From positions 1 through 37,954 of IMG/VR virus record IMGVR_UViG_3300025325_000080: a DNA stretch of 37,954 nucleotides. The stretch is one strand, 5' to 3'. Numbering within the stretch: position 1 is the stretch's first letter; every line of letters starts with the position of its first letter. Both the position numbers and the translations under genes were made by a program. Of this stretch, positions 1,855-16,587 are shown piece after piece. The notes under the pieces are model-generated. The model was not told the DNA's origin, did not search any database, and was given only the letters and a program-made list of their open reading frames with translations. This stretch comes from a virus.

Positions 1855-2379
1855 TCATGCCTTCACCGCCAGGTTGCGATTACTCTCCATCAGCGCGCTG
1901 ATCGCTTTGTCTCTCTCTCGTAAAACTTCTTGAAGTTGTGCCTGTGCCGTCTGTAAATTGGCAACGATCACATTCATCGATAAAAGTTGATCTCTGAGGG
2001 TGTCGCTGATCGGCACGGATTTAGCCAAGTCCCGCAGAAGCTCCAGTTGCTTGTTCGCCTGCATAAGTTGGGCGTCGCGGTCTGACAGCCGTAGCTGTAA
2101 CTGCTCAATTGTTCGATTTCGTTCTGTCGCGGCTACTTCCAGGGCGACGTTTTCACCATAAAGCGTATCATTCCGATCCTGTAGTTTTTTCAGTAGGTCC
2201 GAGAACTTATCGAACGCATCCACATCCGTCGATGCCGCGCCGGACCGGACAGATTCTGCCTCGGCCAGCAGCTTCTCGCGCTCGGCCAGCAGCTTCCGGC
2301 GTCCGAAGATCAGGGTAATGATCGTGCTCACGAACCCAAGCACACCCACAGACAAGGCGATGATCTCTCCACCGGTCAT
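1855..2379 (-). CDS. membrane-anchored coiled-coil protein
   Basis: One N-terminal membrane helix (about residues 5-25, followed by positively charged R-R-K) is joined to a long coiled coil rich in Leu, Gln, Glu and Arg (about 28-170). It has no lipobox or catalytic motif. It begins within the last bases of the HD-GYP gene (4-base ATGA overlap) and has GGAGG 7 bases upstream, so the two are translationally coupled. It may tether or scaffold its partner at the membrane. Spanin-like and chemoreceptor-like roles were considered, but neither has support. Confidence 0.7.
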   Translation of the reverse strand: MTGGEIIALSVGVLGFVSTIITLIFGRRKLLAEREKLLAEAESVRSGAASTDVDAFDKFSDLLKKLQDRNDTLYGENVALEVAATERNRTIEQLQLRLSDRDAQLMQANKQLELLRDLAKSVPISDTLRDQLLSMNVIVANLQTAQAQLQEVLRERDKAISALMESNRNLAVKA

Positions 2380-4682: not shown

Positions 4683-4718
4683 TCTTGTTTCGAGATCTGG
4701 CCACCGGTGAACACAAGA
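4683..4718. repeat. TCTTGT-N24-ACAAGA element, copy 1
   Basis: A 36-bp unit with exact 6-bp inverted ends. The interior begins TTCGAG and ends GTGAAC, so pairing extends partly inward. It lies 11 bases upstream of the unknown gene starting at 4672. Confidence 0.85.
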
Positions 4719-4721
4719 TAG

Positions 4722-4757
4722 TCTTGTCCTCAGGACCCGGGCACCAGGCATACAAGA
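4722..4757. repeat. TCTTGT-N24-ACAAGA element, copy 2
   Basis: A second exact 36-bp unit, 3 bases after copy 1. Its interior ends CACCAGGCAT, which nearly matches the interior end of the copy at 15093 (GCCAGGCAT). Confidence 0.85.
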
Positions 4758-4764
4758 CGCACGT

Positions 4765-4950
4765 TCATTTATCCCATCTAATCGGCAAGCCAAGCATATT
4801 GCAAAACGCAAAGCACCACAGCATGGTGACCAAACAACCTGCCGCAATCGCCAGCATTTTGCCAACCAGATCAAGCAAAGCTGCATAGGTCAGCATTGCA
4901 AGCAATATGGGAACGATGAAATATATAAGCACAACAAATTTGAAGCTCAT
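4765..4950 (-). CDS. small two-helix membrane protein
   Basis: The product has 61 residues and consists almost wholly of two hydrophobic helices (about 4-25 and 30-52). GGGAG lies 8 bases upstream of ATG 4950, and the start overlaps the stop of the Cys-rich gene by 4 bases, which indicates coupling. It could be a holin, a superinfection-exclusion protein or another inner-membrane peptide. The sequence does not distinguish these. Confidence 0.65.
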   Translation of the reverse strand: MSFKFVVLIYFIVPILLAMLTYAALLDLVGKMLAIAAGCLVTMLWCFAFCNMLGLPIRWDK

Positions 4951-5321
4951 GATTTACTCCCATTGAATTCAGCAAGCCCAATGTCTTGCAAATCTCCCGG
5001 GTCGACGCGCTCCCCTGCTTCAAGCGCGCGCAGGCTTCGCAGTTGTCGATCCGCCCAGGAATATTGCTTATAAAGGTTGTCGCGTTGCTTTTCGATATCC
5101 GCACGGATTCTTTTGATCTTCGGCTTGCTCGCTTTGAGCAATTCAATATGCTTCGTCACATGCTCAGGCAGCTGGATCCCAACATACTTCGCTGCGCTAT
5201 TGCCATCGTACCCATACCAGTAGGGACCGTGCCCCTCGCCGGTCGCACACTTGCAGCCTGGCTTTCCACACTTGCGATACTGCTGGCGATATTGCACGCC
5301 ATTGACTTTCAGTTCATTCAT
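4947..5321 (-). CDS. Cys-rich G-K-P-G-C-K-C protein, paralogue A (DUF6788-like)
   Basis: This 124-residue protein carries the signature C-G-K-P-G-C-K-C...G-H-G-P-Y-W-Y (residues 18-36). I associate that signature with small DUF6788-like proteins of unknown function found near mobile-element replication or recombinase genes. The Cys cluster may bind zinc. The second half is a charged coiled-coil helix. The first 58 residues differ from the copy at 6037-6408 at only two positions, while the second half has diverged. AAGGAG lies about 10 bases before ATG 5321. Confidence 0.75.
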   Translation of the reverse strand: MNELKVNGVQYRQQYRKCGKPGCKCATGEGHGPYWYGYDGNSAAKYVGIQLPEHVTKHIELLKASKPKIKRIRADIEKQRDNLYKQYSWADRQLRSLRALEAGERVDPGDLQDIGLAEFNGSKS

Positions 5322-5340
5322 GGCCGTAGGTCTCCTTTGA

Positions 5341-5982
5341 TTAGTTTGCCGCGTTCAGGCGCGGGGCCTTTTGATAATTTTGGATTGCCCACATTTCAGG
5401 CTCGACCACGGTCTGCACTGGCGTAATGCTGAGCTGCGCTTGATCAGCAGGCTTGATAAAACCGCGTGTGAACTTCGGTGCAGGTTGCAGATAGGTTGGA
5501 GCATCATAAGTTTGCATAAGTTCTGCGTTGACCATCACAAAAAGAGTCTCGCCCTTTTCCTTCGCGGTTTCAATCGCCATCTCCATCACATCTGAGAGCT
5601 CACACTTGATGCTCCACGATCCACACATCAGATATGAGCCACACTCGCGCTGGATGATCGTTCCGCCGCCCGATCCTGGCTCATGATATTCGGCGAGTCC
5701 CTGCTCTTTTAACTTATCGCCTACGACCTTGGCAATCTGATGATCGAGCGTGATACCAACGATCTGCGCTTCAGCGAATGCAGAGACCACATCCTTTTTG
5801 TGATAGCGCAAGAACACAAGCCGATCACCGAACTGCATGCCGCGGACCTGTTGAGCAGGAGCGCGCCGCGAGATGCGTTGAAGCTTGGCTTCATTGATAA
5901 ATTTATCGGTGCTCTTGTAGTACCCACCGATGAAGTGCATCCATGTGTTTTTCTGATGAATGAGAGATAGTTGTGTATTCAT
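5341..5982 (-). CDS. hypothetical protein between the two Cys-rich paralogues
   Basis: The product has 213 residues and I recognise no family. It contains a glycine-rich turn (E-P-G-S-G-G-G-T-I-I) and later two Cys residues near S-Y-L-M-C-G-S-W, in a mixed alpha/beta pattern with no membrane helix. The track frame reaches 6030, but ATG 5982 is preceded by AGAAGGATG at a workable distance, and the extra N-terminus would cross a TCTTGT-N24-ACAAGA element. Being enclosed by two duplicated genes suggests it was captured or retained during the duplication. Confidence 0.65.
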   Translation of the reverse strand: MNTQLSLIHQKNTWMHFIGGYYKSTDKFINEAKLQRISRRAPAQQVRGMQFGDRLVFLRYHKKDVVSAFAEAQIVGITLDHQIAKVVGDKLKEQGLAEYHEPGSGGGTIIQRECGSYLMCGSWSIKCELSDVMEMAIETAKEKGETLFVMVNAELMQTYDAPTYLQPAPKFTRGFIKPADQAQLSITPVQTVVEPEMWAIQNYQKAPRLNAAN

Positions 5983-5996
5983 AATAATTTCATCCT

Positions 5997-6032
5997 TCTT
6001 GTTTATGGCCAGATGATCACCGGCGCACAAGA
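5997..6032. repeat. TCTTGT-N24-ACAAGA element, copy 3
   Basis: An exact 36-bp unit in the 54-base gap between genes starting at 5982 and ending at 6037. Its interior ends CACCGGCGC, like the copies at 15170 and 15980. Confidence 0.85.
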
Positions 6033-6036
6033 CTGC

Positions 6037-6408
6037 TCACTGCTTCCCGTTGAATTGAGCAAGCCCCAAAGACTTCAGCATCCGCGAATCAACCCGCTCC
6101 CCTGCCTCGAGCGCCCGCACCGCACTCAGCTCACGATCAGCCTTGCGATAAGATTCATACAGATCATCACGTCGCTTCGAGATCTTCTCTTTGATGGCCT
6201 TCAGCTTTTCCCTGCTCGCCTTGAGCAGCGCTAAGTGCTTCGTGACATGCTCAGGCAACTGGATGCCCACGTACTTCGCCGCGCTGTTGCCATCATAGCC
6301 ATACCAGTAGGGACCGTGTCCCTCGCCGGTGTTGCACTTGCAACCTGGCTTTCCACATTTGCGATATTGCTGGCGATATTGCACGCCGTTGACTTTCAAT
6401 TCGTCCAT
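6037..6408 (-). CDS. Cys-rich G-K-P-G-C-K-C protein, paralogue B (DUF6788-like)
   Basis: This is a 123-residue paralogue of the protein at 4947-5321, with the same C-G-K-P-G-C-K-C and G-H-G-P-Y-W-Y signature and an almost identical first half. The C-terminal helix differs strongly (R-E-K-L-K-A-I-K-E-K against P-K-I-K-R-I-R-A-D-I) but keeps the R-A-L-E-A-G-E-R-V-D segment and a G-L-A-x-F-N-G end. AGGAGG lies 6 bases before ATG 6408, the best ribosome site in this stretch. Confidence 0.78.
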   Translation of the reverse strand: MDELKVNGVQYRQQYRKCGKPGCKCNTGEGHGPYWYGYDGNSAAKYVGIQLPEHVTKHLALLKASREKLKAIKEKISKRRDDLYESYRKADRELSAVRALEAGERVDSRMLKSLGLAQFNGKQ

Positions 6409-6418
6409 GATAGACCTC

Positions 6419-6724
6419 CTAAAAAAATTTCATCTGCACAGTGCGTGCCAAAGCAAAGCGCGCACTGATGCTGTAGCGGCCACCGCTGCGGTCCGACGTG
6501 GGTTCGACTTTCGGGACCTGGTAGGGGAAGTTGTTGGTCACCGTTTCCCATTCCTTGAGGCTCGGGAAGGTATCGTCCCGAGTGATAGCCAGCCAGACGT
6601 TGCTGTTGACACAGATTATCTCGATCCGCAGACCTCTGCCAAGTTTTCGGACGACCTTCTGCCCGGCCTTCGCCTTCGCTTCGGCGAACATGTCTTCTAA
6701 GATTTCTTGCAACTTGCTTTTCAT
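6419..6724 (-). CDS. hypothetical protein, paralogue of the protein at 35165-35473
   Basis: The 101-residue protein begins with a helix (K-L-Q-E-I-L-E-D) and continues with alternating beta strands. It aligns over its length with the protein encoded at 35165-35473: shared K-L-x-E-I-L-x-D, E-A-K, R-G-L, E-W-x-T-V, P-x-Q and a closing G-x-R-Y-x-[LI]-[TS]-A-x-F. No function is known to me. AAGGAG lies before ATG 6724, and its start overlaps the next gene's stop by 4 bases. Confidence 0.7.
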   Translation of the reverse strand: MKSKLQEILEDMFAEAKAKAGQKVVRKLGRGLRIEIICVNSNVWLAITRDDTFPSLKEWETVTNNFPYQVPKVEPTSDRSGGRYSISARFALARTVQMKFF

Positions 6725-7047
6725 GGTTGATCTCCTTTTTCCTGCTTGCTCACATCCACATCGTATGATTTGCTAAGCAAATCATCAAGCCAGCCGCGCC
6801 GGATGACCTCGATGATATGCGGGACTCCATATTGGAGAAACTGAGATTGCATCTGGTCCGCAATCCGCCTGGCGATGAGCCGCGAAGATCCCGCATTGAA
6901 CGGGTTCTGGTTTGCGAGCTGCACCGCACTGATCAACGACATCGCCTGGTCCGGTGTCAAACTCAAGCGAACGACCATCCCCTGCTGCCCAAGCTGCGTC
7001 ATCTCGCGTGTAAATTGCCTGACAAGCTCTTTGTTGCTTACGTCCAT
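6721..7047 (-). CDS. hypothetical helical protein
   Basis: This protein of about 108 residues is mainly helical, rich in Gln, Arg and Ser, with a central segment S-L-T-P-D-Q-A-M-S-L-I-S-A-V-Q-L. Two adjacent ATGs exist (7050 and 7047). GGAGG is too close to the first, so the second is preferred. It overlaps the stop of the initiator-like gene upstream. No motif gives a function. Its position directly after a putative replication initiator suggests a replication or regulatory accessory. Confidence 0.6.
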   Translation of the reverse strand: MDVSNKELVRQFTREMTQLGQQGMVVRLSLTPDQAMSLISAVQLANQNPFNAGSSRLIARRIADQMQSQFLQYGVPHIIEVIRRGWLDDLLSKSYDVDVSKQEKGDQP

Positions 7048-7913
7048 CATTCCTCCTTACTTTCGTCATACGTCGCAGTCCCGATCTCATAATGTTCTTC
7101 GCACCACCTTGAGGATCCCTGCTTGCATGGTTTCATGCACATGGGCGTCTTCTTCTTCGTCTTATCCCCCACACGATTCGGGTGAAGCAGTTCATCTGTC
7201 TCATCCTGCCACACACAACCAACACCGGTCATGTCCAATTCTTCGTCATCATCAATCAGTTCACTCGCTTCTTCCCGCCTGGATATTTCCTTGATTTCGT
7301 CCAACCAGGCCTGCGGCATTTCATTGGCCTCGATCCGTCGGATGGCCAGTCCGATCCTATCCGTAGTCCGCAGCCCCTTGACATGGGCATCGATCAACTC
7401 GGGCGAGACATGTTCGAGCCGTGAGATCGTGGAAGCTTTTGGTTCTCCGATGCCAGAATTTCGACACGCAGCAAGGTTTGCTTCGAAGGTCACTCCATGG
7501 GTCAGATACACCACAGATGGCCCTGACTCCGATTTAATCGGATTCAGGGCCTCTACTACTACTGAGTCTTTAACTATTTTTAATACATTAATGTCTACAG
7601 TAGTAGTAGTAGCTCCGACTCCGATTAAATCGGAGTCTCCCCCAGTAAGTTGCTCGACCTTCTCAAGCATCTCCATTAAGGGCAGTTGTCTTCCTTCAAC
7701 CAAACACCACGGACCACGCGACCCGCGCGCTGCTAACCAACCAAGATTCACCAGCAACCTTACAGCCACGGTGATGTTATCTCCCTTATAGCCAGTCCAC
7801 TCTTGGAGCTCAAGCGCGGTCATGACGCGACGCGTGAAAGCGAAGGCCCATAAGATCGATGCTGGAGCGCCTTTGATTGATCTAACAAAGGTTAGTGGGT
7901 TTTCGAATCGCAT
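7047..7913 (-). CDS. winged-helix protein, probable replication initiator
   Basis: In this 288-residue protein the N-terminus (about 10-75) looks like a winged helix used by phage replisome organisers: A-S-I-L-W-A-F...T-A-L-E-L-Q-E-W-T-G, then a second helix V-A-V-R-L-L-V-N-L-G-W-L and a wing with R-G-S-R-G-P-W. The middle is a low-complexity stretch (T-T-T-T and V-V-V) encoded by a large DNA inverted repeat that looks like an origin. The C-terminus has a Cys/His-rich end (C-M-K-P-C and C-E-E-H). As in lambda O, origin and initiator would coincide. AGGT lies before ATG 7913. Confidence 0.6.
   Translation of the reverse strand: MRFENPLTFVRSIKGAPASILWAFAFTRRVMTALELQEWTGYKGDNITVAVRLLVNLGWLAARGSRGPWCLVEGRQLPLMEMLEKVEQLTGGDSDLIGVGATTTTVDINVLKIVKDSVVVEALNPIKSESGPSVVYLTHGVTFEANLAACRNSGIGEPKASTISRLEHVSPELIDAHVKGLRTTDRIGLAIRRIEANEMPQAWLDEIKEISRREEASELIDDDEELDMTGVGCVWQDETDELLHPNRVGDKTKKKTPMCMKPCKQGSSRWCEEHYEIGTATYDESKEE
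7519..7643. other. candidate replication origin: large inverted repeat with AT-rich loop
   Basis: The two arms (7519-7566 and 7595-7643) are imperfect inverted copies. Each contains its own palindrome, GACTCCGATT followed by AATCGGA-type sequence: 7521-7549 with one mismatch and 7618-7638 perfect. Each also carries a CTACTACTACTG triplet tract (7552-7563 against its complement 7599-7610). The 28-base loop (7567-7594) has only four G/C bases. Iterated binding sites plus an AT-rich unwinding region inside an initiator gene is the lambda-type origin layout. The origin call is inference; the repeat is directly seen. Confidence 0.6.
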
Positions 7914-7914
7914 A

Positions 7915-8193
7915 TCAACCTAGCCCCGCATATATTATGGAAGCCCAGCGGCCATCGGTAAGCGGCTGGATAAAATTATCATCTTCTAGTAGTTTCACAC
8001 CATATTCCACCGCCTCCCGCGGGTAGCTTGTATTCTCCTGAAGATCTTCGATGTTCAACCCATTGGAATGACCAGGCATATTTAGTACAAGCAAGATCAT
8101 TGCTGGCGATCCATGCATGCCAACAGTGAAGTTCCCTTGTTCATCGACAAGATGATGATTGATATGTTTATGAGGCTTTATTTTATAGTTCAT
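7915..8193 (-). CDS. small winged-helix-like protein
   Basis: The product has 92 residues. The N-terminus is His-rich (K-P-H-K-H-I-N-H-H). The C-terminal half has a helix-turn-helix feel: I-E-D-L-Q-E-N-T...E-A-V-E-Y-G-V-K-L-L, then D-D-N-F-I-Q-P-L, then a wing G-R-W-A. ATG 8193 is chosen over the upstream ATG 8214 because AAGGAG lies 9-10 bases before it, inside the longer frame. It ends 2 bases before the initiator-like gene, so it may regulate or assist it. Confidence in the fold is moderate. Confidence 0.6.
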   Translation of the reverse strand: MNYKIKPHKHINHHLVDEQGNFTVGMHGSPAMILLVLNMPGHSNGLNIEDLQENTSYPREAVEYGVKLLEDDNFIQPLTDGRWASIIYAGLG

Positions 8194-8221
8194 TTCTGAT
8201 GTCTCCTTTGTCAATTCACGT

Positions 8222-9013
8222 TCACTGCTTGCTTTCCACTGGTGTGAACAATGCAGCCGCCAGGCTTGTCTTCGGCTTGCACAACTCCGGATGATGTTTC
8301 TTCATGTGCGCACCAACCGAATTCGCACTGCGAAGCATCTGCGTGCAGTGCTCGCACTTGCGCGGATAAGTCCGTCGCACTGCGACAGAGTCCGTCGCAC
8401 TCTTTGCACTGTCCGGCTTCTTCGTCGCAGTCTGCGTTGCACTCTTTGCACTGTGCGCCGCACGTCCGTTTCCTGCAGGCGCAGATAATTGCACTCCATA
8501 CACCAAAGCAATCGCAGCCAGTGCCAGGTCCGCAGCTACAATCCGACCAACGGACCAGAGCCACGCCCAAACGATCCCCAACACGGTGTAAAGATTTTCT
8601 TCACCCGAGATCGTCATAAAGACATAAGGTGCCAGCAGCGCAGGCGAGATGATGAGCAGCAAAATGATCGCTGACCAGGCTGTATAGAAACGCACGTTCG
8701 GGATCGATCGATATTTATCCTTCTTCCCGCGGATCTTCTGCTCAATGCGCGGCTTGAGCTTGCCCAGCCGCGCCAGCACATACACCAATCCGGCGGCGAC
8801 CGTGATCCCCATTGATAGACCAGAAATCCCTCCCAGCACTGGCAGAAGAAACTCTCGCACCCATGTGCTCACCAATCCCTGGATCTCCGTAGACACGAAG
8901 GCGCCAATCCAGATCGTCACATTTGCGAGCGCGCCGGTGATCAGTAACAACCTGCCGAAATCGAAGCTGGATTTCTTCTTTCCTTGTTTAGCCTGCTTTG
9001 TTTGCGTCTTCAT
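8222..9013 (-). CDS. four-helix membrane protein with C-terminal C2H2 zinc finger
   Basis: The product has 263 residues. Four hydrophobic segments (about 21-41, 56-83, 110-135 and 143-173) are followed by a Ser/Ala/Lys/Thr-rich linker with a repeated S-A-K-S-A-T, then a C2H2-type finger (C220-x2-C223, H236-x3-H240). ATG 9013 has AAGGAG upstream; the longer frame to 9058 overlaps the ATPase stop. The gene follows an FtsK/HerA-type ATPase. That pairing suggests an inner-membrane complex that handles DNA, with the finger contacting DNA or a partner at the cytoplasmic face. I do not recognise a named family. Confidence 0.72.
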   Translation of the reverse strand: MKTQTKQAKQGKKKSSFDFGRLLLITGALANVTIWIGAFVSTEIQGLVSTWVREFLLPVLGGISGLSMGITVAAGLVYVLARLGKLKPRIEQKIRGKKDKYRSIPNVRFYTAWSAIILLLIISPALLAPYVFMTISGEENLYTVLGIVWAWLWSVGRIVAADLALAAIALVYGVQLSAPAGNGRAAHSAKSATQTATKKPDSAKSATDSVAVRRTYPRKCEHCTQMLRSANSVGAHMKKHHPELCKPKTSLAAALFTPVESKQ

Positions 9014-9038
9014 CGCTTCATCTCCTTCACTGCTACTA

Positions 9039-10298
9039 CTACCCCGCCACCGCCCCATTTAGGGGCAAATCGGGACTGCCAGTAGTAGCAGTAGCAGTAG
9101 TAGCACTCAAATATTCGATAATTTTGTTGATCGTGGCATTCCAGGAGCCGCCGTTCGGCTTACCCAACAACCGGCCCACAGCTCTGCCGCTCATGCCTGG
9201 GGTCCACTGTGAGCGGATCGATTCAGCCAGCTTCACGATCTCATCCTGCTCAGCGGGTTCGCTCTGTGCTTCAGCCCCTTCAATCATCAACTGGCGGGCC
9301 TCCTCCGAGATCGGGGGGTACGTCACCGTGAAAGATTGGAACTCGACCAGCCTGCCCCTCCAGATGATCAACCCGCGCCCGCATACATCCGGCAGGGTTT
9401 CGGCGCCCTTGCTGCCCAGCATGGTGATCGAGTCGTTGTGGTGAGGCACACGGAACGCCACCCGGGTGGACAGGTTCGTCTTGGCGAACATCTCAGCCTG
9501 CGTGGGCTGATTGGTCGCAATGATCGGATACAGACCCACATAGCGATAGATGCGGATCATCTGCTTCAGCAGCAGCTTGGCCGAATCAGGCAGGTCCGCA
9601 GCTTCATCTACAAAGAGCGCGATCGGCAGAATGGGATCCTCGGGATGCGCATCGTTGTGCATCAGGATGTTCACGCATCCACTCTTCACCAGCTTTTGCT
9701 CGCGCTCACGGAACAAAGCCTGCAGCTGCTCCAGTTCGCCCGCTTGAAAGATCAGGTGGAAGTTGGGCTGATCTGCATAGCGGATGAACTCAACGCTGTG
9801 CTTACCATCCCAGGCATAGACCAGTGTCTTGCCTCCGTGCAGCAGAGCCTGGATCCACGCATGCTCCTCGCCCGTCTTGCCCATCCCTGTCGAGCCACCC
9901 AACAGGAACGAGATGCCACCCATCAGCGGGATCCACAATGGACCATTCTTCGTCATCCCCACCGGCAGATCCCAGGGATGCGGCTGCTTTGTCAGGTCCA
10001 GGGGCATGGCTTCATCGAGTGAAACCGATGCGCTCGGAATCTCCAGGCCCACCTGCAGAAAGAGACCCCGCGTATTTGTGCGGATCACACGCCGTCCCTC
10101 GAGTCGAGTGGAAAGGTCGTGGACAAAATGATCGTTAACGCGCTCGAGCCGGATCGCAGACGGGTCAAAGGCCACGATGATGCGCTCATCTCTCTGCCAC
10201 AGATAGAATGCCACCCCGGATGAGTAATGCAACACCTTGTTCTGGATCAGCAGGCTGAGCGTTTTATATGCCACCCGCTGAACTAAATTTGTGTTCAT
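9039..10298 (-). CDS. FtsK/HerA-like P-loop ATPase (DNA translocase type)
   Basis: This 419-residue protein has a Walker A at 134-142 (G-G-S-T-G-M-G-K-T) and a Walker B at about 226-236 (A-L-F-V-D-E-A-A-D-L). Between and after them are the FtsK-style segments Y-A-W-D-G-K and I-I-A-T-N-Q-P-T, the latter resembling the sensor region. No membrane helix is present, so any anchoring comes from its neighbours. Such ATPases pump double-stranded DNA in cell division, conjugation and some mobile elements. It is not the packaging ATPase, since a terminase is present. AAGGA and GGAGG sites precede ATG 10298, and the start overlaps the lipoprotein stop by 4 bases. Confidence 0.82.
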   Translation of the reverse strand: MNTNLVQRVAYKTLSLLIQNKVLHYSSGVAFYLWQRDERIIVAFDPSAIRLERVNDHFVHDLSTRLEGRRVIRTNTRGLFLQVGLEIPSASVSLDEAMPLDLTKQPHPWDLPVGMTKNGPLWIPLMGGISFLLGGSTGMGKTGEEHAWIQALLHGGKTLVYAWDGKHSVEFIRYADQPNFHLIFQAGELEQLQALFREREQKLVKSGCVNILMHNDAHPEDPILPIALFVDEAADLPDSAKLLLKQMIRIYRYVGLYPIIATNQPTQAEMFAKTNLSTRVAFRVPHHNDSITMLGSKGAETLPDVCGRGLIIWRGRLVEFQSFTVTYPPISEEARQLMIEGAEAQSEPAEQDEIVKLAESIRSQWTPGMSGRAVGRLLGKPNGGSWNATINKIIEYLSATTATATTGSPDLPLNGAVAG

Positions 10299-11230
10299 TC
10301 CTTCTTTGCCTCCTTCCAGGAACTATCCAGCTCCTGGACAATCACACCATCGATCACTTCAAGATGGTTCGTCGCACCATCCAATATTTTGAAGCGACTC
10401 TCTAGGTTGGAATCGGAAAGCTGTTTGATCATCTCCTGGCCGGCCAGTTGCTTCCTGGCTTCCGACTTCTGCTCGCCGGGTAATCCCCTCGTAGCCAGAT
10501 CGATCATCTGATCGCGTTCGGTCACTGCGTCCTGGCGTTCTGCAGTAATGGCAGGCAGTAAAGGCGGCAGGTTCAACTTTGTCTCAGCCCAGCGGTTGAT
10601 CAATCCAGCTTTCAACTGGCCTTGAAAATTCGGACTGCGATCTATATCGGTGTATGTGCCGTCGACGATATTGAGCACTGGCAAAATATTCCCTCGTGCA
10701 TCCACCTGCGGCGCTTGAAAACTCCAGCGACGGACGATCAGCATCACGAAGATGATCAGCACCAGCACCACGACTACAAAACTATACACAGGCAGCTTGC
10801 CCTTGAAGTCGTTGATATCCTGCTGTCGTTGGAGCTCCAAATTGTCACGGATCGCATTATTTGCCATCTGCGTGCCCTGTGCATTCAACAAACCAAACAC
10901 AGCGGTCTGGGTGGCGTCCGGTGTCGGAGTCCAGGCCATGGCAGTCTGGGTCATGGCGGAGATCTGCGTCTCCTGTATGCTCTGTGCAGTGACCGTCCAC
11001 ATCTGCTGCTGGAAGACCATCCCCGCCGCGGTCTCAGTGATCCGGATGATCGGGGCCTCGGCAGTCGCGGTCAGGAACTGGCTCTGGTAATACGCCTGTT
11101 GCAGCGCCGCATCTGAGGTCGCCTTGCTGTTCTGCACATTTGCATACAGATCTGGCGAACCGGCTGGAGGCGTTACACACCCCGCCAGGGCCAGGACCAC
11201 AAGGAACATTAAGAACGGTTTCTTGTTCAT
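10295..11230 (-). CDS. lipoprotein with a second transmembrane segment
   Basis: The 311-residue protein begins M-N-K-K and a hydrophobic core ending in lipobox L-A-G-C18, so it should be lipidated at Cys18. A Thr/Ala/Gln-rich extracytoplasmic stretch (about 20-140, including T-P-T-P-D-A-T-Q-T-A) leads to one strong membrane helix at about 148-166 and a soluble domain with a C-terminal helix-rich end. ATG 11230 is chosen because AAAGGG is 9 bases upstream; the ATG at 11239 abuts it. An outside stretch tethered at both ends plus a cytoplasmic domain beside an FtsK-type ATPase suggests a membrane complex. The T-P-T-P style linker resembles Chloroflexota lipoproteins. Confidence 0.78.
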   Translation of the reverse strand: MNKKPFLMFLVVLALAGCVTPPAGSPDLYANVQNSKATSDAALQQAYYQSQFLTATAEAPIIRITETAAGMVFQQQMWTVTAQSIQETQISAMTQTAMAWTPTPDATQTAVFGLLNAQGTQMANNAIRDNLELQRQQDINDFKGKLPVYSFVVVVLVLIIFVMLIVRRWSFQAPQVDARGNILPVLNIVDGTYTDIDRSPNFQGQLKAGLINRWAETKLNLPPLLPAITAERQDAVTERDQMIDLATRGLPGEQKSEARKQLAGQEMIKQLSDSNLESRFKILDGATNHLEVIDGVIVQELDSSWKEAKKE

Positions 11231-11232
11231 GG

Positions 11233-11403
11233 TCACCATCCCTTTCCTGGGTCATCTTTTCTGAGCTGCTCCACGACCTCACCCCATCCCCAGGGATCGT
11301 TTGGCTTCCGCACGAATAGAATCGCGTAGATGCCAATGCAGATCCCGATGCCCAGCAGACCAACCGCCAGCCCCATTAGAATTGTGAAAATTATGTTCAA
11401 CAT
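11233..11403 (-). CDS. small single-helix membrane protein
   Basis: The product has 56 residues, with a hydrophobic stretch (about 2-31) and a charged tail (W-G-E-V-V-E-Q-L-R-K-D-D). AAGAAGG precedes ATG 11403, whereas the open frame to 11463 lacks support. It lies between two other membrane-protein genes with little spacing, so it is probably a subunit of the same complex as the lipoprotein and ATPase. Confidence 0.65.
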   Translation of the reverse strand: MLNIIFTILMGLAVGLLGIGICIGIYAILFVRKPNDPWGWGEVVEQLRKDDPGKGW

Positions 11404-11413
11404 ATCCACCTTC

Positions 11414-11872
11414 TTACCTGAGCCATTGAAGTGGCTCATCATCGTCGTGCGGACCATTGCCATTCCCAGACGGGAGAGAAGCAGGTGGAGCGGGTGAACG
11501 CATCGACCGCAGCATATCCAGCATCATCAGCTGCGTGAGCTCGTTCATCGAGATCTGACTCTGCGGCCTGCCATCTGCCATCTGCCCTCTGCCCCCTGTC
11601 CCCGGTCCCCCGTCTCCGGTCCCCTGCCCCCTGATCCCTGCCCGCTTCCACATCGCCCACAAGATCACAGCGACCAGCGCCACAAAGATGACCACGAATA
11701 GAGCGATCGTCAGGATTGTGACCAGGTTGCCCCAGGCATTGATCTGGCCGAGCTGGGCGACTTCAATCGTCGCCTGTGCCTGCTGTGCAGTGGAATAGGA
11801 TTGCATCCCCGAAGAGACTCCGAAGATGATCACGATCAGCAATAAGATGGCGATCAGGATAAGGATATACAT
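11414..11872 (-). CDS. two-helix membrane protein with repeat-encoded Gly-rich linker
   Basis: The product has 152 residues. Membrane helices are at about 1-20 and 48-72. Next comes a low-complexity linker (G-Q-G-T-G-D-G-G-P-G-T-G-G-R-G) encoded by a run of short C/T-rich tandem units at about 11565-11645, then a helix with M-N-E-L-T-Q-L-M-M-L and an acidic tail. ATG 11872 is fixed by GGAGG 7 bases upstream; the open frame to 12058 covers another gene. Neither helix pair matches a family I know. It sits in the same membrane-protein cluster as its neighbours. Confidence 0.68.
   Translation of the reverse strand: MYILILIAILLLIVIIFGVSSGMQSYSTAQQAQATIEVAQLGQINAWGNLVTILTIALFVVIFVALVAVILWAMWKRAGIRGQGTGDGGPGTGGRGQMADGRPQSQISMNELTQLMMLDMLRSMRSPAPPASLPSGNGNGPHDDDEPLQWLR
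11565..11645. repeat. short C/T-rich tandem repeat inside a coding region
   Basis: Degenerate units of about 7 bases (TCTGCCC, CCTGTCC, CGGTCCC types) run in frame through the gene at 11414-11872 and encode its glycine-rich linker. Length variation here would change the linker, or its reading frame unless units change in threes. Confidence 0.6.
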
Positions 11873-11873
11873 C

Positions 11874-12170
11874 TCAAGCCTCCATCTGAAAGTCAGACTC
11901 GAAGACAAGTGTGTCGATTGGTCGATACGCTTTCCACGCGCCATTCCCTGGGAATGGATCCTGGCGGGCCAGCCCGTTCTCCCGCAATTGTTTTTGCGCA
12001 GCATGGATGTCTCCCTCGAAATATTTATCCGCGAGCCCATGCAGGCCAAGATGACCAAGGAAGCTGTGCCATGACCGTCCGCTCATCGACGCCTCGCACC
12101 GCGGACAAACTTCCGGTGCGCTCTTGCCAATGACTGCTTTACCACCTAAGGATTGAAAATTTGTTTTCAT
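11874..12170 (-). CDS. small zinc-binding-like protein
   Basis: The product has 98 residues. A C-P-R-C pair at about residues 22-25 is followed by W-H, G-H-L-G-L-H spacing that resembles a C2H2 or treble-clef-like zinc site (H35, H40, H44). The rest is a basic and aromatic tail. GAGGAG lies upstream of ATG 12170. It precedes the two-helix membrane gene by 1 base and is probably co-translated. DNA or protein binding is plausible but unproven. Confidence 0.65.
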   Translation of the reverse strand: MKTNFQSLGGKAVIGKSAPEVCPRCEASMSGRSWHSFLGHLGLHGLADKYFEGDIHAAQKQLRENGLARQDPFPGNGAWKAYRPIDTLVFESDFQMEA

Positions 12171-12200
12171 GTGGCTGATCTCCTCTTGATTGTTAGCCCG

Positions 12201-12389
12201 TTAGTTGTCCCGCTGGGTTGACACAATGACGCCGCCTTTTATGGAATCATTGCCAAACGTGGTCACTTTCCATTTATCGCCAGTTTGAGCATTCGGGAAA
12301 TGCTCTTTGCCGGATGTGCCTTTGTTGGTTGTTACCGTGTCGCTGCCAACCTTCTTGACTGTGACGATTTCTGTTTTTTTGTCGGACAT
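12201..12389 (-). CDS. hypothetical small basic protein
   Basis: The product has 62 residues, rich in Thr, Lys and Val with an alternating pattern (E-I-V-T-V-K-K-V-G-S-D-T-V-T-T), so probably a small beta barrel. A GAGAGAGG ribosome site precedes ATG 12389. The family is unknown. It lies between the GGDEF-like gene and the zinc-binding-like gene in the leftward operon. Confidence 0.55.
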   Translation of the reverse strand: MSDKKTEIVTVKKVGSDTVTTNKGTSGKEHFPNAQTGDKWKVTTFGNDSIKGGVIVSTQRDN

Positions 12390-12441
12390 TTCAGACCTCT
12401 CTCTCCGTTACAAAGCCATCGGGAGCGGGCTAACCAGTCGT

Positions 12442-12963
12442 TTAGCGCGGATCGCCGGGTGCAATGCGGATGACACCGCGCTTGTTTTCCATCTTCGCGA
12501 GCTCCACTAGCTTTACGGCTGGTTCGACATTCGCCGTCAGATCATCTGAGATGACAGGCGCAATGGCAAAGGTGGCCGATAAGCCGTTCTCGCGCAGAGA
12601 TTCTGCCAGGCGTGCGCATAATTCGATGGGGTTCGATTCGCGGCGGCCCGGATCGTCGTCCGTAATGACGACGATGAATTCATCCCCTGAATAACGTTGG
12701 CCTATCCTGTAATCTGATGCGCGCATTGCCAGGCTTTTCTTGATCCGGGTGTTGACACCCGCATGAGTATGGACTTCATTGAGATGCCCCATTTCGTCAA
12801 TGTCGAAAAATATGACCCATCTAGCGATGGCTGCGATCCCCGGCCATATCAGCTCCTGAAAACCCGCGCGCGAATAGCAATCGTACTCATCATTCCACGC
12901 CAGGGCTTGGATCAATTGTTCGAGCTGGCTTCGATTTAATTCGTCTAATTGTTTTTTGTTCAT
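12442..12963 (-). CDS. stand-alone GGDEF-like domain protein (diguanylate cyclase type)
   Basis: This 173-residue protein is essentially one GGDEF domain. Visible are the first metal motif D54-I-D56, Asn62 in the N-E pair that contacts GTP, and the signature S-G-D-E-F at 92-96, a variant found in active enzymes. Lys of the usual D-x-D-x-F-K motif is replaced by Gly58. An R-x-x-D inhibitory-site-like motif (81-84) lies two residues further from the signature than usual. No sensory domain is fused. The family makes cyclic-di-GMP from two GTP. With the HD-GYP protein at 2376-3332, this phage carries a possible synthase and hydrolase. ATG 12963 has GGAG 8-9 bases upstream. Confidence 0.8.
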   Translation of the reverse strand: MNKKQLDELNRSQLEQLIQALAWNDEYDCYSRAGFQELIWPGIAAIARWVIFFDIDEMGHLNEVHTHAGVNTRIKKSLAMRASDYRIGQRYSGDEFIVVITDDDPGRRESNPIELCARLAESLRENGLSATFAIAPVISDDLTANVEPAVKLVELAKMENKRGVIRIAPGDPR

Positions 12964-13169
12964 GGTCGATCTCCGTTCGTCTCGATTTGTTGCGCCAATG
13001 CCGTGGATCGGGACGCATTGAAGATGGTGCCTTTGCAAAACATCTCGCACATGAAGAGCGGACCCTTGAACTCTTCCACAGTCCCGCCGTTATAAGTGAC
13101 CGTATAGTTTGCCGTCAGGGGCAGCATATCTTTGACGTTCATTGCGCAATTCAAATGTGTTGTTGACAT
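12960..13169 (-). CDS. hypothetical small protein, first gene of the early leftward operon
   Basis: The product has 69 residues with three Cys and a predicted beta hairpin (Y-T-V-T-Y-N-G-G). TAGGAG precedes ATG 13169. Its stop overlaps the GGDEF-like start by 4 bases, so the two are coupled. It is the first leftward gene after the divergent integrase promoter region. No family is recognised. Confidence 0.6.
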   Translation of the reverse strand: MSTTHLNCAMNVKDMLPLTANYTVTYNGGTVEEFKGPLFMCEMFCKGTIFNASRSTALAQQIETNGDRP

Positions 13170-13226
13170 TGTGGTTAATCTCCTATCGTGCTGCATTCAA
13201 GCAGCGGTGGTGTAAAATCGGATTTG

Positions 13227-13276
13227 CAACTGTCTGCTGGTAGTCTTCGTGGTTGATCTCGACCAGCAGGCAGTTG
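13227..13276. promoter_or_regulatory. 15-bp inverted repeat in the divergent int/operon region
   Basis: CAACTGTCTGCTGGT (13227-13241) matches the reverse complement of 13262-13276 at 14 of 15 positions, with a 20-base loop. It ends 8 bases before the integrase ATG and lies between the divergent leftward operon and int. It is a candidate operator, or a control hairpin for integrase expression. Confidence 0.6.
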
Positions 13277-13284
13277 TATAAAAA

Positions 13285-14145
13285 ATGAATGACGATCTTT
13301 CGAACTTCCTTGCGTCCTTCCCCTATGCCGAATCTACTCGGCGGACCTACTTGGACATTCTGAGCCGCATATTCGCGATGAGCCAAGATATCGCGAATAT
13401 GTCGGCTCCCAATTTATTGAAAATTTTGAATGAGAGCGGGTGGGGGAATTCTCGTCAGTGCGTCGCACTGGCAGCCATTCAAAAATTTCTTACCTGGAAA
13501 TATGGTCAGGCGCATCCTGCGCTCGCTGCAAAGATCAAGCGATTTCGTGGAAAACCGCAGCGTGCTCTTACCCCCGAAGTTGCCCTGAAGCTGCTTGCCT
13601 CATTCGACCCCTACACTTCCAAAGGCGCTCGCGACCTGGCGATCTGTACGCTTGCTCTGGATACCGGCCTGCGCGCTTCTGAGCTTTGCAGGCTCCAGCT
13701 TTCCGACACAGATCTGGATCGTCGTGTCCTGCAGGTCGTTGTCAAAGGCGGTCAGTGGGCTGCCGCTGTCTTCAGTGCTCAGACCGCAGAACATATCCGG
13801 CGCTGGCTGAACTATCGCAAGCCTACTAAAGGCCAGGGATTTTTATTCGCCAACACCTTTACCGGGAAAGGTCTCACCCCGGAGGGTCTCAATCAAATTG
13901 TCAGGCAGTGGGGTTTGCATATCGGTATCAAACTTTCCCCGCATGATCTGCGTCGTTCCTTCGCCATGCTTGCCACCGAGCTCATGGGCGCTCCTGAGCG
14001 TATCCTGATGGAGGGCGGTCGCTGGTCCAATTCCGACATGATCCAGCGCTACACCCGAACCCTCAAACTGGAAGCCATGCGAAAGTATTTGCCGGTGTCC
14101 GGCCTTCTGGGAGATGGTGATCCAGATGATATAATCAAGCCGTAA
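13285..14145 (+). CDS. int: tyrosine recombinase (phage integrase)
   Basis: This 286-residue site-specific recombinase has an N-terminal SAM-like core-binding domain (about 1-88) and a catalytic domain (about 95-275). All active residues are visible: Arg130 in T-G-L-R-A-S-E-L, Lys154, His220 and Arg223 in S-P-H-D-L-R-R, Trp247 at the H/W position, and nucleophile Tyr256 in I-Q-R-Y-T-R. There is no arm-type DNA-binding domain before residue 5, so it is a short, XerD-like form. No Shine-Dalgarno is seen upstream of the ATG (TATAAAAA immediately precedes it), so leaderless or weak translation is possible. It reads into the tRNA-Gly fragment that serves as attP. Confidence 0.95.
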   Translation: MNDDLSNFLASFPYAESTRRTYLDILSRIFAMSQDIANMSAPNLLKILNESGWGNSRQCVALAAIQKFLTWKYGQAHPALAAKIKRFRGKPQRALTPEVALKLLASFDPYTSKGARDLAICTLALDTGLRASELCRLQLSDTDLDRRVLQVVVKGGQWAAAVFSAQTAEHIRRWLNYRKPTKGQGFLFANTFTGKGLTPEGLNQIVRQWGLHIGIKLSPHDLRRSFAMLATELMGAPERILMEGGRWSNSDMIQRYTRTLKLEAMRKYLPVSGLLGDGDPDDIIKP

Positions 14146-14166
14146 CTTGATTGTGGAACTAGTTGT

Positions 14167-14198
14167 TCCCAAGCAAGAGCGCTTGCTTCCCAAGCAAG
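14167..14198. repeat. duplicated CCCAAGCAAG and inverted AAGCAAG at attP
   Basis: TTCCCAAGCAAG occurs at 14166-14177 and again at 14187-14198. AAGCAAG at 14171-14177 also pairs with CTTGCTT at 14182-14188 across AGCG. The upstream copy may be an integrase binding arm or a remnant of earlier recombination in the tRNA. Confidence 0.55.
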
Positions 14199-14228
14199 AT
14201 ATCGTGGGTTCGAGTCCCATCACCCGCT
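14182..14228 (+). other. attP core: 3' half of tRNA-Gly(CCC)
   Basis: The sequence reads as anticodon stem CTTGC/GCAAG around loop TTCCCAA (anticodon CCC at 14189-14191), a five-base variable loop, T-arm GTGGG-TTCGAGT-CCCAT, then CACCCGC and discriminator T, as in bacterial tRNA-Gly. No matching acceptor 5' strand or normal D-arm lies upstream, so the tRNA is incomplete. It lies 36 bases downstream of int with phage genes on both sides, as expected for attP. Integration would restore the host tRNA gene. Confidence 0.82.
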
Positions 14229-14295
14229 TTAAGTCTATTCGGTTGTTAAGGTGCTGCTCTTTTACTGGACCTTAGCCCCGATGGGCTTGAAGCTG

Positions 14296-14332
14296 GGTCG
14301 CCTGCCTGTCCCGGTAGGCGACCTGCTTTTTA
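14296..14332 (+). terminator. Rho-independent terminator after int/attP
   Basis: GGTCGCCTGCC pairs with GGTAGGCGACC (11 bp with one G-T pair) around TGTCCC, followed by TGCTTTTT. The T-run is on the plus strand only, so it ends integrase transcripts just before the convergent HTH gene. Confidence 0.85.
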
Positions 14333-14333
14333 A

Positions 14334-14552
14334 CTAGGATTGATCAGAGAGACCCTGCTCGTTTTCAGCCATGAGCTTTAGCACGCGCTCGAGCTCGCTG
14401 ACCGGAATAAAAACGGGTGAGGTCCTGCCGTTGAAAGGATCCTTCTTGAATCCCTTCACCTTGCCGGACTGCACCCATCGGCTAACTGTATTGCGGGCGA
14501 CACCAATCTTGGCTGCGAATTGTGAAACTGTCATCAGGTCTGTTTTAGTCAT
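14334..14552 (-). CDS. helix-turn-helix DNA-binding protein (excisionase type)
   Basis: This 72-residue MerR/HTH_17-like domain reads M-T-V-S-Q-F-A-A-K-I-G-V-A-R-N-T-V-S-R-W-V, then S-G-K-V-K-G-F-K-K wing and a short C-terminal helix. The size and position next to int and attP fit an excisionase (recombination directionality factor). It converges on int across the terminator. A second protein of the same type is at 15215-15427, so which is the excisionase is open. Confidence 0.75.
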   Translation of the reverse strand: MTKTDLMTVSQFAAKIGVARNTVSRWVQSGKVKGFKKDPFNGRTSPVFIPVSELERVLKLMAENEQGLSDQS

Positions 14553-14605
14553 ACGGACATCTTATCCTGCTTGTCCCTTGCCGTCAAGGGTTGCGGGCCT
14601 ATCAA

Positions 14606-14648
14606 TCTTGTATATCTGAGACGGCGATCCGGCTAAGAAGATACAAGA
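14606..14648. repeat. TCTTGT-N31-ACAAGA element, long variant
   Basis: Exact 6-bp ends as in the 36-bp family but 31 bases between, giving 43. It lies between the HTH gene (start 14552) and the rightward gene at 14687. Confidence 0.6.
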
Positions 14649-14686
14649 ATCGTTTTCGCACTGCGAAGCGTCCAATTGGAGAAAGC

Positions 14687-15070
14687 ATGATTAATTTTGG
14701 AGAGATCTTCTTTTGCGAAAAAGTAATTCATAACCCCGATGGCTCGCCATTCTCATTTGTCAACCGGTTTAGCAGCGTGAAAGTGGAGATTTATCCATAT
14801 CTTTTTGGGTGTACCATCGTCATTGACAAAATCATCCACAGTGAACCGCTTCACCACTTGATTTCCATCCGCATCAGGAACCCCGACGGAGAGAATATAT
14901 TCGAGAGCGCGCCGCGGCCCCTCATCTCCGACTCGCCCACTGGATCCTCCCGCGAATTTGGGTTCTTTAGTCAGCTTCCAGAAATTGAAATTCCGGAACC
15001 GGGCCGCTACACGGTGGAAATACTTTTGAATGATGTTGTTCGCCATAGAGAATTCCTTTCTTTCACCTGA
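14687..15070 (+). CDS. rightward accessory protein of unknown function
   Basis: The product has 127 residues and is mainly beta (alternating I-V-I-D-K-I-I and I-S-I-R-I-R), ending E-P-G-R-Y-T-V-E-I-L-L-N-D, which resembles small DUF6941-like beta-sandwich proteins. ATG 14687 has TTGGAG 7 bases upstream; the open frame back to 14591 crosses a repeat and lacks a ribosome site. It is one of only three confident rightward genes, beside the lysogeny region, so it may be expressed from the prophage. A role in immunity or superinfection exclusion is only a guess. Confidence 0.65.
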   Translation: MINFGEIFFCEKVIHNPDGSPFSFVNRFSSVKVEIYPYLFGCTIVIDKIIHSEPLHHLISIRIRNPDGENIFESAPRPLISDSPTGSSREFGFFSQLPEIEIPEPGRYTVEILLNDVVRHREFLSFT

Positions 15071-15092
15071 TCATATTTTAGCGCATCGCAAA

Positions 15093-15128
15093 TCTTGTCC
15101 CCGAGCTGCGGGCGCCAGGCATACAAGA
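15093..15128. repeat. TCTTGT-N24-ACAAGA element, copy 4
   Basis: An exact 36-bp unit in the gap after the rightward gene. Its interior is very like copy 2 (both end CCAGGCAT). Confidence 0.85.
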
Positions 15129-15134
15129 TAAGAC

Positions 15135-15166
15135 ATCGCGCGATCCCGACGTCGGGATCGCGCGAT
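15135..15166. repeat. 32-bp perfect palindrome
   Basis: Half-site ATCGCGCGATCCCGAC is followed at once by its reverse complement. It lies exactly between element copies 4 and 5, 6 and 3 bases from each. No T-tract follows, so it is an operator or structural site rather than a clear terminator. Confidence 0.8.
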
Positions 15167-15169
15167 TGA

Positions 15170-15205
15170 TCTTGTTTCCACCGCTGGCCACGCCGGCGCA
15201 CAAGA
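15170..15205. repeat. TCTTGT-N24-ACAAGA element, copy 5
   Basis: An exact 36-bp unit with GC-rich interior ending CGCCGGCGC, close to copy 11. Confidence 0.85.
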
Positions 15206-15214
15206 CATTGAGCA

Positions 15215-15427
15215 TCAATTCACGGTATAAAAAAAGCCGCGCTGTTGGCGGCGTTTCTCGATAAATGCATCCACGTCGCTTTTTGGGATTCGCCAGGGGG
15301 ATTTCGGTTTTGGACTGAGCTTGAACGCGTTGGGAAAGAAACCCGAATTAATCCATACGCTGATGGTTGTTTGTGTCACGTTCAACTTCCTCGCGACCTC
15401 GGCAGTGGTCATAATTATTTCTTCCAT
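15215..15427 (-). CDS. second small helix-turn-helix protein (excisionase/MerR type)
   Basis: The product has about 70 residues. The HTH reads T-T-A-E-V-A-R-K-L-N-V-T-Q-T-T-I-S-V-W-I-N, followed by a wing with S-P-W-R-I-P and a helix D-V-D-A-F-I-E-K. Several starts are possible (15451, 15427 and 15412); none has a strong ribosome site. It is the same fold type as the protein at 14334-14552. Element copies lie on both sides of the gene, making it one candidate to bind them. Confidence 0.7.
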   Translation of the reverse strand: MEEIIMTTAEVARKLNVTQTTISVWINSGFFPNAFKLSPKPKSPWRIPKSDVDAFIEKRRQQRGFFYTVN

Positions 15428-15671
15428 CAGCAGTTCCAGTTGCAGTACCATGCGCTCATTATATCAAACACTGATTATATGTTCTAGTACCTCGATTCGA
15501 GCGCGTGTAGTCACTCAGCACGCGCGCCGGGGGGATCGGAGCCTCGCGTCTTCCGGGTGGGCGCAGCCCCCTCCCGCCCCAACCAGCCACACAAATGCCC
15601 TCAGGTTCGGAGAGGGCTATAGTGGCTACGCGATATAACTGCTCAGCTCAAAATCCCCGGAGGGGCAGGGG

Positions 15672-15707
15672 TCTTGTTCTGCTCAGCTGCGGATCCACGA
15701 AACAAGA
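15672..15707. repeat. TCTTGT-N24-ACAAGA element, copy 6
   Basis: First exact 36-bp unit of the gene-free island. The interior carries CAGCTG and GGATCC, which are short palindromes. Confidence 0.85.
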
Positions 15708-15717
15708 AACAAGATTA

Positions 15718-15753
15718 TCTTGTAATTCCTGGAACGGCATGCAGCGCACAAGA
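15718..15753. repeat. TCTTGT-N24-ACAAGA element, copy 7
   Basis: Exact 36-bp unit, 10 bases after copy 6. The linker between them itself contains ACAAGATTATCTTGT, so facing ends form a further inverted pair. Confidence 0.85.
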
Positions 15754-15760
15754 AAGCCAA

Positions 15761-15803
15761 TCTTTCCTGAAACGGCACATTGGCCAATTAATTCCACACA
15801 AGA
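15761..15803. repeat. degenerate 43-bp variant of the element
   Basis: The left end is TCTTTC rather than TCTTGT, the right end is exact ACAAGA, and 31 bases lie between, the same spacing as the variant at 14606. Confidence 0.4.
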
Positions 15804-15902
15804 CTTGTCCTGAGCGAAGCGAAGGATCTCGGATTCTTGGGGGTGCTGCGATATGGCCCGACTCCACTGCGTGCGTCCTGGAGCTTCCTGTGGTCACGAA
15901 AT

Positions 15903-15938
15903 TCTTGTTTCTGGCCACAGCTCCCAGGGAACACAAGA
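15903..15938. repeat. TCTTGT-N24-ACAAGA element, copy 8
   Basis: Exact unit whose interior begins TTCTGG and ends CCAGGGAAC, so pairing continues inward. It is separated by only 2 bases from copy 9. Confidence 0.85.
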
Positions 15939-15940
15939 AT

Positions 15941-15976
15941 TCTTGTTTGCGATCGCTCGGGCCTGGCTACACAAGA
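15941..15976. repeat. TCTTGT-N24-ACAAGA element, copy 9
   Basis: Exact 36-bp unit between copies 8 and 10, making a tandem triplet with 2- and 3-base linkers. Confidence 0.85.
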
Positions 15977-15979
15977 CGA

Positions 15980-16015
15980 TCTTGTTTCGCCGGCGGGCCA
16001 GGCCGGCGCACAAGA
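15980..16015. repeat. TCTTGT-N24-ACAAGA element, copy 10
   Basis: Exact unit with the clearest hairpin: CGCCGGC pairs with GCCGGCG inside the 6-bp ends. It ends 7 bases before the stop of the gene at 16023. Confidence 0.85.
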
Positions 16016-16022
16016 TATGATC

Positions 16023-16514
16023 TTACTGCTTACTGATCACTGGATGCTGATCACTGATTGCTTTTGCAATCTCCCACGCCTGCACATAAGCCAGACACGC
16101 AAACCCCATCTTCCTTCCCTCGAAGATCGTCAACGGCATCGAGACACTGACCCCTTTTCCATTCGGCCTGACCGCACCCTCTCCAAGTTCCTGCCCTGGC
16201 CCATTCCGCACCTCGATCCAAACCTTATCCTGCTTCGTCTCGATCTTCAACACGCGCGAGACCAGAAAATTATTCGAGCCTCTACCGCCTTTGAAATCAA
16301 TGAATTCCACTGGCTTTCCCCAGCTCAGATCCGAAAGCACCACCCGTGCATCATCCACATCCAGGAACGCATACGCCGTCGAGTTCGAACCTCTCCCTTT
16401 CTCGAACGATCCAATAAAAAATCGCAGCTTCCCGCGCTCCAGGGCGTCCTCGATATGTAGAAAACGTGTTCTAGTCAGGTGCGAAAAAAGCCGTGGCCGT
16501 TCTGGTGCGTTCAT
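16023..16514 (-). CDS. hypothetical beta-rich protein, end of the leftward structural operon
   Basis: The product has 163 residues. Two copies of a G-R-G-S-N turn (about residues 40 and 76) sit in a beta-strand-rich body (L-R-F-F-I-G-S-F-E-K; A-Y-A-F-L-D-V-D-D-A-R-V-V). This could be an OB-like or other nucleic-acid-binding fold, but I recognise no family. ATG 16514 is preferred over GTG 16535; neither has a strong ribosome site. The last ten codons are encoded by short repeats (CTGATCACTG type), so the C-terminus is probably repeat-derived. It stands apart from the fibre genes and could belong to the early set. Confidence 0.6.
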   Translation of the reverse strand: MNAPERPRLFSHLTRTRFLHIEDALERGKLRFFIGSFEKGRGSNSTAYAFLDVDDARVVLSDLSWGKPVEFIDFKGGRGSNNFLVSRVLKIETKQDKVWIEVRNGPGQELGEGAVRPNGKGVSVSMPLTIFEGRKMGFACLAYVQAWEIAKAISDQHPVISKQ

Positions 16515-16551
16515 ACTGCTTATTCTAATCCCCACTTACCACTCACTGCTG

Positions 16552-16587
16552 TCTTGTTTATGATATCGCCCTTCACGAAGGACAAGA
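16552..16587. repeat. TCTTGT-N24-ACAAGA element, copy 11
   Basis: Exact 36-bp unit in the gap upstream of the gene starting at 16514. The interior holds GATATC and CCTTCACGAAGG, the latter a short hairpin. Confidence 0.85.

Follow-up and report, generated by a model that had tools for sequence, protein, structure and literature searches.

The 36-bp elements and the genes around them

The stretch of DNA analysed here, which we call the window, is the whole of an IMG/VR virus record (37,954 bases), and it carries eleven exact copies of a 36-bp element, TCTTGT-N24-ACAAGA, in which two inverted 6-bp boxes enclose 24 bases that vary between copies. The first two copies (4683-4718 and 4722-4757) stand in tandem, and the third (5997-6032) starts 4 nucleotides (nt) past a DUF6788 stop codon, directly next to the Shine-Dalgarno region of the following gene. 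Two DUF6788 genes are present, both on the minus strand: copy 1 (6037-6408; Pfam PF20586, E=2.9e-11) encodes the proposed box-binding protein, and the product of copy 2 (4947-5321; PF20586, E=2e-11) is 76% identical to it. Further exact matches to the pattern lie at 15093-15128, 15170-15205, 15672-15707, 15718-15753 and 16552-16587; the copies at 15903-15938 and 15941-15976 are members of a three-unit tandem array, and the one at 15980-16015 lies 7 nt beyond the end of the coding sequence at 16023-16514. The region also holds two minus-strand genes for HTH_17 proteins, one excisionase-like (15215-15451; Pfam HTH_17, 1.8e-13) and one HTH_17/Cox-like (14334-14552; Pfam HTH_17, 5.5e-07), with a 43-bp variant of the element (14606-14648) upstream of the Cox-like gene.

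Dinucleotide shuffles of the window lead to an expectation of 0.02 copies, and none of 100 shuffles reached eleven. The original prediction, made from the letters of the window, had every one of the eleven start positions right; its chance estimate of 0.002 was somewhat low, although the rarity that it asserted holds. Its placement of the elements between genes is likewise borne out, as gene calling by codon usage puts all eleven outside genes. It had further listed two 43-bp variants, of which the one at 14606 is genuine: in two relatives (G004 24922 and G010 14069) it corresponds to TCTTGTA-TCTTGT-N24-ACAAGA, again upstream of a Cox-like gene, and a third (G007) has a related N31 form; the one at 15761 is inexact, its left end being TCTTTC. 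Outside the elements we found no avoidance of the box in the window, with 19 unpaired boxes against 23 in a composition control.

A scan for two tandem elements yielded 20 stretches from about 15 viral contigs, and further relatives were gathered by terminase and integrase searches. The search in related phages that had been suggested along with the prediction thus recovered the same elements: the near full-length relatives G003, G004, G007 and G010, whose terminases share only 27 to 92% identity with the window's, contain 8 to 15 copies each. The relatives' elements also include some with gaps of 23 or 30 bases, and after removal of exact duplicates there are 88 distinct interiors of 24 bases, 15 of 23 and 5 of 30 (N24 in 88/108). 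Common ancestry of the interiors is seen in some copies only, an example being the element at 4722, which has homologous interiors at G010 12476, G010 13191 and G007 31151. Units within a tandem array are often just 2 or 3 bases apart, and across all contigs 134 of the 139 elements are clear of genes, the remaining ones overlapping gene ends. In about a dozen cases the element starts 0 to 15 nt after a stop codon, and two other contigs have an element ahead of a TTGACA...TATAAT promoter, at a distance of 10 or 11 nt. The host side looks different: the same two-element scan of 84,980 bacterial and archaeal genomes gave only two loci, both in Chloroflexi metagenome-assembled genomes (MAGs), and in 400 Chloroflexota genomes single matches stayed at about the level of a reversed control, except for one pair beside a DUF6788 gene. 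The host-genome search that had also been suggested therefore came out close to control level, and we rejected a host-wide repeat family on these grounds.

DUF6788 and the boxes

Several searches connect the elements to DUF6788. Among records of at least 20 kb, seven of the eight with elements carry a DUF6788 gene, as opposed to none of ten element-free relatives with a similar integrase or terminase (P=2.5e-4, with relatedness ignored); the pattern search in these element-free relatives covered gap 23 only, with gap 24 and others checked on fetched loci. Both Chloroflexi MAG loci, found by the DNA pattern alone, have a DUF6788 gene directly adjoining the elements. Conversely, when 2.9 million viral contigs were scanned for the DUF6788 family, all eight matches at E<=2e-30 were element-bearing phages. 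In the window, G003, G007 and G010, moreover, an element begins 0-6 nt past the DUF6788 stop codon.

The next matches in the viral contig scan, after the phages, are contigs with archaeal-type promoters. In L102, L103, L104, L105 and L106, 12-17 copies of CTTAC-NN-AAGAC or its complement are located in the DUF6788 gene or within about 300 bp of it, where they flank the TATA box; the rest of each contig has none. Some of these copies are intragenic, lying between two domains of the coding sequence and being themselves read in different frames, and the C-terminal segment of this archaeal-type protein looks, from its sequence, like a winged helix. Three Alicyclobacillus and three Leptolyngbya plasmids show a similar picture: ACAAGA or A(C/T)AAGA is densest at the DUF6788 gene, whose promoter has box pairs, inverted or direct (TCTTGTGTAA...TTACACAAGA is a Leptolyngbya example). 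The core common to the phage, archaeal-virus and plasmid boxes is TCTT(A/G)T. As the box flanks the DUF6788 promoter in the archaeal viruses and in both sets of plasmids, it points to autoregulation. Such boxes were not found at other DUF6788 clades (transposon-linked, or at the N-terminus of long Chloroflexota open frames), which means that they are not a property of any gene neighbourhood. The Chloroflexota open frames with a DUF6788-like motif near the N-terminus (L081-L092) are about 900-1550 codons long.

Given this distribution, DUF6788 of this clade very probably binds the box, with TCTTGT as its core, in a site-specific manner, and the elements are probably pairs of operators for the DUF6788 protein that the phage itself encodes, arranged much like stoperators. 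Of the three proposals made in the original prediction, binding sites of a phage regulator is thus the best supported, with DUF6788 as the candidate regulator and not the HTH proteins encoded at 3837, 14334 and 15215. How might such a protein act? Each 36-bp element would be a pair of inverted DUF6788 sites. An AlphaFold2 model of DUF6788 (pLDDT 91) has a small sheet, on a loop of which sit the invariant Cys18, Cys23, Cys25 and His31, and then a long helix (residues 66-101); the box could be read by this small beta-sheet domain with its conserved Cys and His residues, and the long helix could hold or bridge two boxes about 30 bp apart. Since the 8 to 15 copies are mostly found just past stop codons, in tandem arrays and in strips between genes, many transcription units would be acted on at once. 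DUF6788 would then control or insulate several of them, the simplest means being a block or bridge on transcribed DNA, as with a stoperator-binding repressor, and in its plasmid and archaeal versions it would regulate its own gene. That the outcome is repression or a roadblock, as opposed to genome organisation or partition, we put forward only tentatively. No paper on DUF6788 was found in the literature collection searched; the elements provide this Pfam family of bacterial and archaeal viruses and plasmids with a testable function and a predicted recognition box.

We must however take into account several observations that weigh against DUF6788 as the reader of the boxes. One element-bearing record of 21 kb (G428) is without DUF6788, although it is a fragment. 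In the phages the boxes are not located at the DUF6788 promoter, and gaps between divergent genes, the expected place for an ordinary operator, hold only 2 of 58 elements. Boxes around DUF6788 are weak or absent in Methanothermobacter, Chlorohelix and Rhodothermus plasmids. A reverse search with the inverted pair TCTTRTGTAA...TTACAYAAGA was unspecific, as only 4 of its 42 matches adjoin DUF6788 and most of the 42 are chance ones; its control pattern was stricter than the test pattern and hence unfair. Structural comparison of the model with the PDB gave no significant neighbour and no known DNA-binding fold. Lastly, the palindromic interiors described below are unaccounted for by DUF6788 alone.

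The same arrangement could be explained if the boxes were operators of an HTH_17/Cox-type protein (encoded at 15215 or 14334) and DUF6788 a mere neighbour. HTH_17 genes do stand beside elements in the window and its relatives, an HTH_17-like reading frame, judged by eye, adjoins the elements of MAG contig L035, and the 43-bp variant precedes the Cox gene in the window, G004 and G010. Nevertheless, we consider this unlikely, since HTH_17 homologues are present also in element-free relatives (L059 and L061), and since it is DUF6788 that the box accompanies into archaeal viruses and other plasmids. The integrase was rejected as the ligand of the box because element-free relatives have it too.

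Palindromic interiors

In a sample of 70 elements that differ from one another by more than 5 bases, palindromes of at least 6 bases cover 59% of the interior, compared with 21% of shuffled interiors and 17% of random genomic 24-mers. Dyad centres fall near position 6.5, counted from the left or the right box, and at the midpoint, position 12.5, with z reaching 15 against column shuffles, and in N30 elements the six added bases usually hold another central palindrome. Complementarity between the two halves of the interior is avoided, and shuffled interiors are predicted to fold more stably than the real ones, by 0.9 kcal/mol, which together indicate that the dyads belong to double-stranded DNA; being local and loopless, they cannot form hairpins. 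The self-complementarity noted in the original prediction therefore stands as several short local dyads and not as an extension of the outer stem, and its reading of the element as a structured one, whether as hairpin RNA or DNA, is rejected by the folding and the avoided pairing. Its third proposal, a miniature mobile element, does not fit as copying of a whole sequence, as only boxes and spacing are constant among the copies, even though some elements are clearly related by descent.

Palindromicity persists while the interior sequence turns over. Where related elements differ at 2 to 8 positions, palindrome coverage in the partner is 0.56, compared with 0.24 after an equal number of random substitutions; as the pairs are non-independent and the partners are themselves family members, the 0.56 demonstrates maintenance, not its cause. 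Frequent interior words are CCWGG, GATC, CCGG, AGCT, GATATC and TGGCCA, with CTAG and GTAC nearly absent. CCWGG occurs 42 times against 6.7 expected and GATC 41 times against 8, whereas CCSGG is unenriched; ATAT is found as GATATC in 12 of 12 instances, and GGCC as TGGCCA in 15 of 22. Both function and common descent may lie behind this vocabulary. The elements thus represent a rare case in which self-complementarity of DNA is kept despite sequence change, in short double-stranded sites incapable of forming hairpins.

A second boxed family, GTGAC-N27-GTCAC, was seen in the relatives (L031 11434-12468; L048 1178-2205). Its boxes flank a C5 DNA methyltransferase gene, named from sequence motifs, in G010 and L048, and overlap the likely promoter of that gene (TTGACAAGTCAC); the gene has the same place and opposite orientations in these two contigs. 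Palindrome coverage of the GTGAC-family interiors is 0.36 against 0.16, in a small and partly overlapping sample. At a guess, GTSAC, that is GTGAC and GTCAC jointly, is the methyltransferase's own site.

The fixed spacing and the local dyads suggest a second symmetric protein between the boxes, and the likeliest reader of the interior palindromes, at about an even chance, is such a protein in dimeric form, either DNA-binding or DNA-modifying. A more speculative and somewhat doubtful extension is a two-layer site, in which DUF6788 boxes at exact spacing would surround two or three local palindromes selected for symmetry, not sequence; a further partner would read these, for instance a set of dimeric host proteins or of DNA methyltransferases. 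On this view the methyltransferase gene is enclosed by a like arrangement that uses a different box. If true, such a two-layer DNA site would be without known parallel. Identifying the reader of the palindromes would reveal either a new phage regulatory code or a new link of phage regulation to DNA modification.

Could the elements be collections of restriction or methylation sites that serve as decoys, or that sense DNA modification by the host or a phage enzyme? Their interior vocabulary does resemble Type II sites of 4, 5 and 6 bp, and the second boxed family flanks a C5 methyltransferase gene. However, the rest of these genomes shows neither avoidance nor enrichment of the palindromes, the common vocabulary may in part reflect descent, and the boxes are left unexplained, all of which makes this an improbable account. 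Restriction-site avoidance was itself rejected because the palindromes are not avoided elsewhere in the genomes.

Alternatively, the elements could mark where mobile gene cassettes begin and end, with cutting or recombination taking place at the boxes or in the palindromes. Variable small genes are bracketed by elements, similarity between phages often stops near one, the methyltransferase gene between GTGAC-family boxes is inverted from one relative to the other, and palindromic words are compatible with orientation-free joining. Yet no recombinase tracks the elements, the integrase being common to many element-free relatives, and elements also occur between tail genes of a structural operon (G003 24386-24503), so that we hold this to be quite unlikely. 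Finally, that the elements act as RNA, as hairpins or leaders near ribosome-binding sites controlling translation or stability, is very unlikely despite the 6-bp stem that the outer ends can make and the two window elements that abut Shine-Dalgarno sequences, given the weak folding, the avoided pairing between halves and the loopless dyads described above, and the lack of any match to the elements in an Rfam search.

Neighbouring features and known systems

The gene at 16023-16514 (minus strand) encodes a protein without assigned function (..AYAFLDVDDARVVLSDLSWGKPVEFIDFKGG..) with 49-69% identity in relatives, and it is followed by an element cluster in the window, G003, G004, G007 and G010. 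A conserved non-coding stretch with GC-rich inverted segments (CTGGGCGCCCCCCTCGCTCCGGGCGTTTGTC) follows a TTGACA...TATAAT promoter between the terminase and portal genes of other contigs (L039 2480-2680; L041 6180-6400; L045 2640-2840; L048 2300-2480); it had no match in Rfam and is possibly a structured RNA. Elsewhere in the window we observed a likely attP at 14160-14230 with a tRNA-like 3' end (GTGGGTTCGAGTCCCATCACCCGCT), beside the integrase gene, a free-standing GIY-YIG homing-type endonuclease with NUMOD3 motifs (1218-1853), and a phage-encoded response regulator with an HD-type (HD_5) output domain (2376-3332).

Among known systems, halovirus HF2 has intergenic repeats with AT-rich promoter motifs (PMC8707807). 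These share with our elements the placement of several short repeats between viral genes, whereas the interiors of the elements are 62% GC and hold no promoter motif. REP and REPIN sequences, linked to the single gene family of RAYT transposases, are likewise small, palindromic and extragenic. They are GTAG- or CGTC-tagged palindromic repeats (PMC3733652, PMC3116915), and REPs are copied as sequence; the elements, by contrast, are not hairpins, are without a GTAG or CGTC tag, and are linked to a gene that is not a transposase. An identity with REP/REPIN was rejected because the interior is less foldable than shuffles and conservation is limited to the 6-bp ends.

The nearest parallels in layout are the L5-type stoperators and the extended start-associated sequences (ESAS) of Cluster K mycobacteriophages. 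L5 stoperators are asymmetric and have a one-way orientation. They measure 13 bp and act in transcription regulation (PMC3203893). As with them, many copies of a short site occupy short intergenic intervals of a siphophage-like genome and a phage protein is proposed as ligand, although each element here consists of two 6-bp boxes, inverted and with 24 bp between them, and has a palindromic interior and DUF6788 as candidate ligand. ESAS are 17-bp imperfect inverted repeats with a variable spacer, located upstream of a 13-bp start-associated sequence at translation starts; they are intergenic, accompany about half of the 11 to 19 associated sites per genome, and have no function assigned (PMC3203893). 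The elements are intergenic inverted repeats as well, but with 6-bp ends, a spacer of constant length and, in many copies, a position after a stop codon. Set apart from both systems by the 24-base spacing, the palindromic interiors and the link to DUF6788, they would, judging from the sequences compared here, constitute dispersed phage operator sites of a new form.

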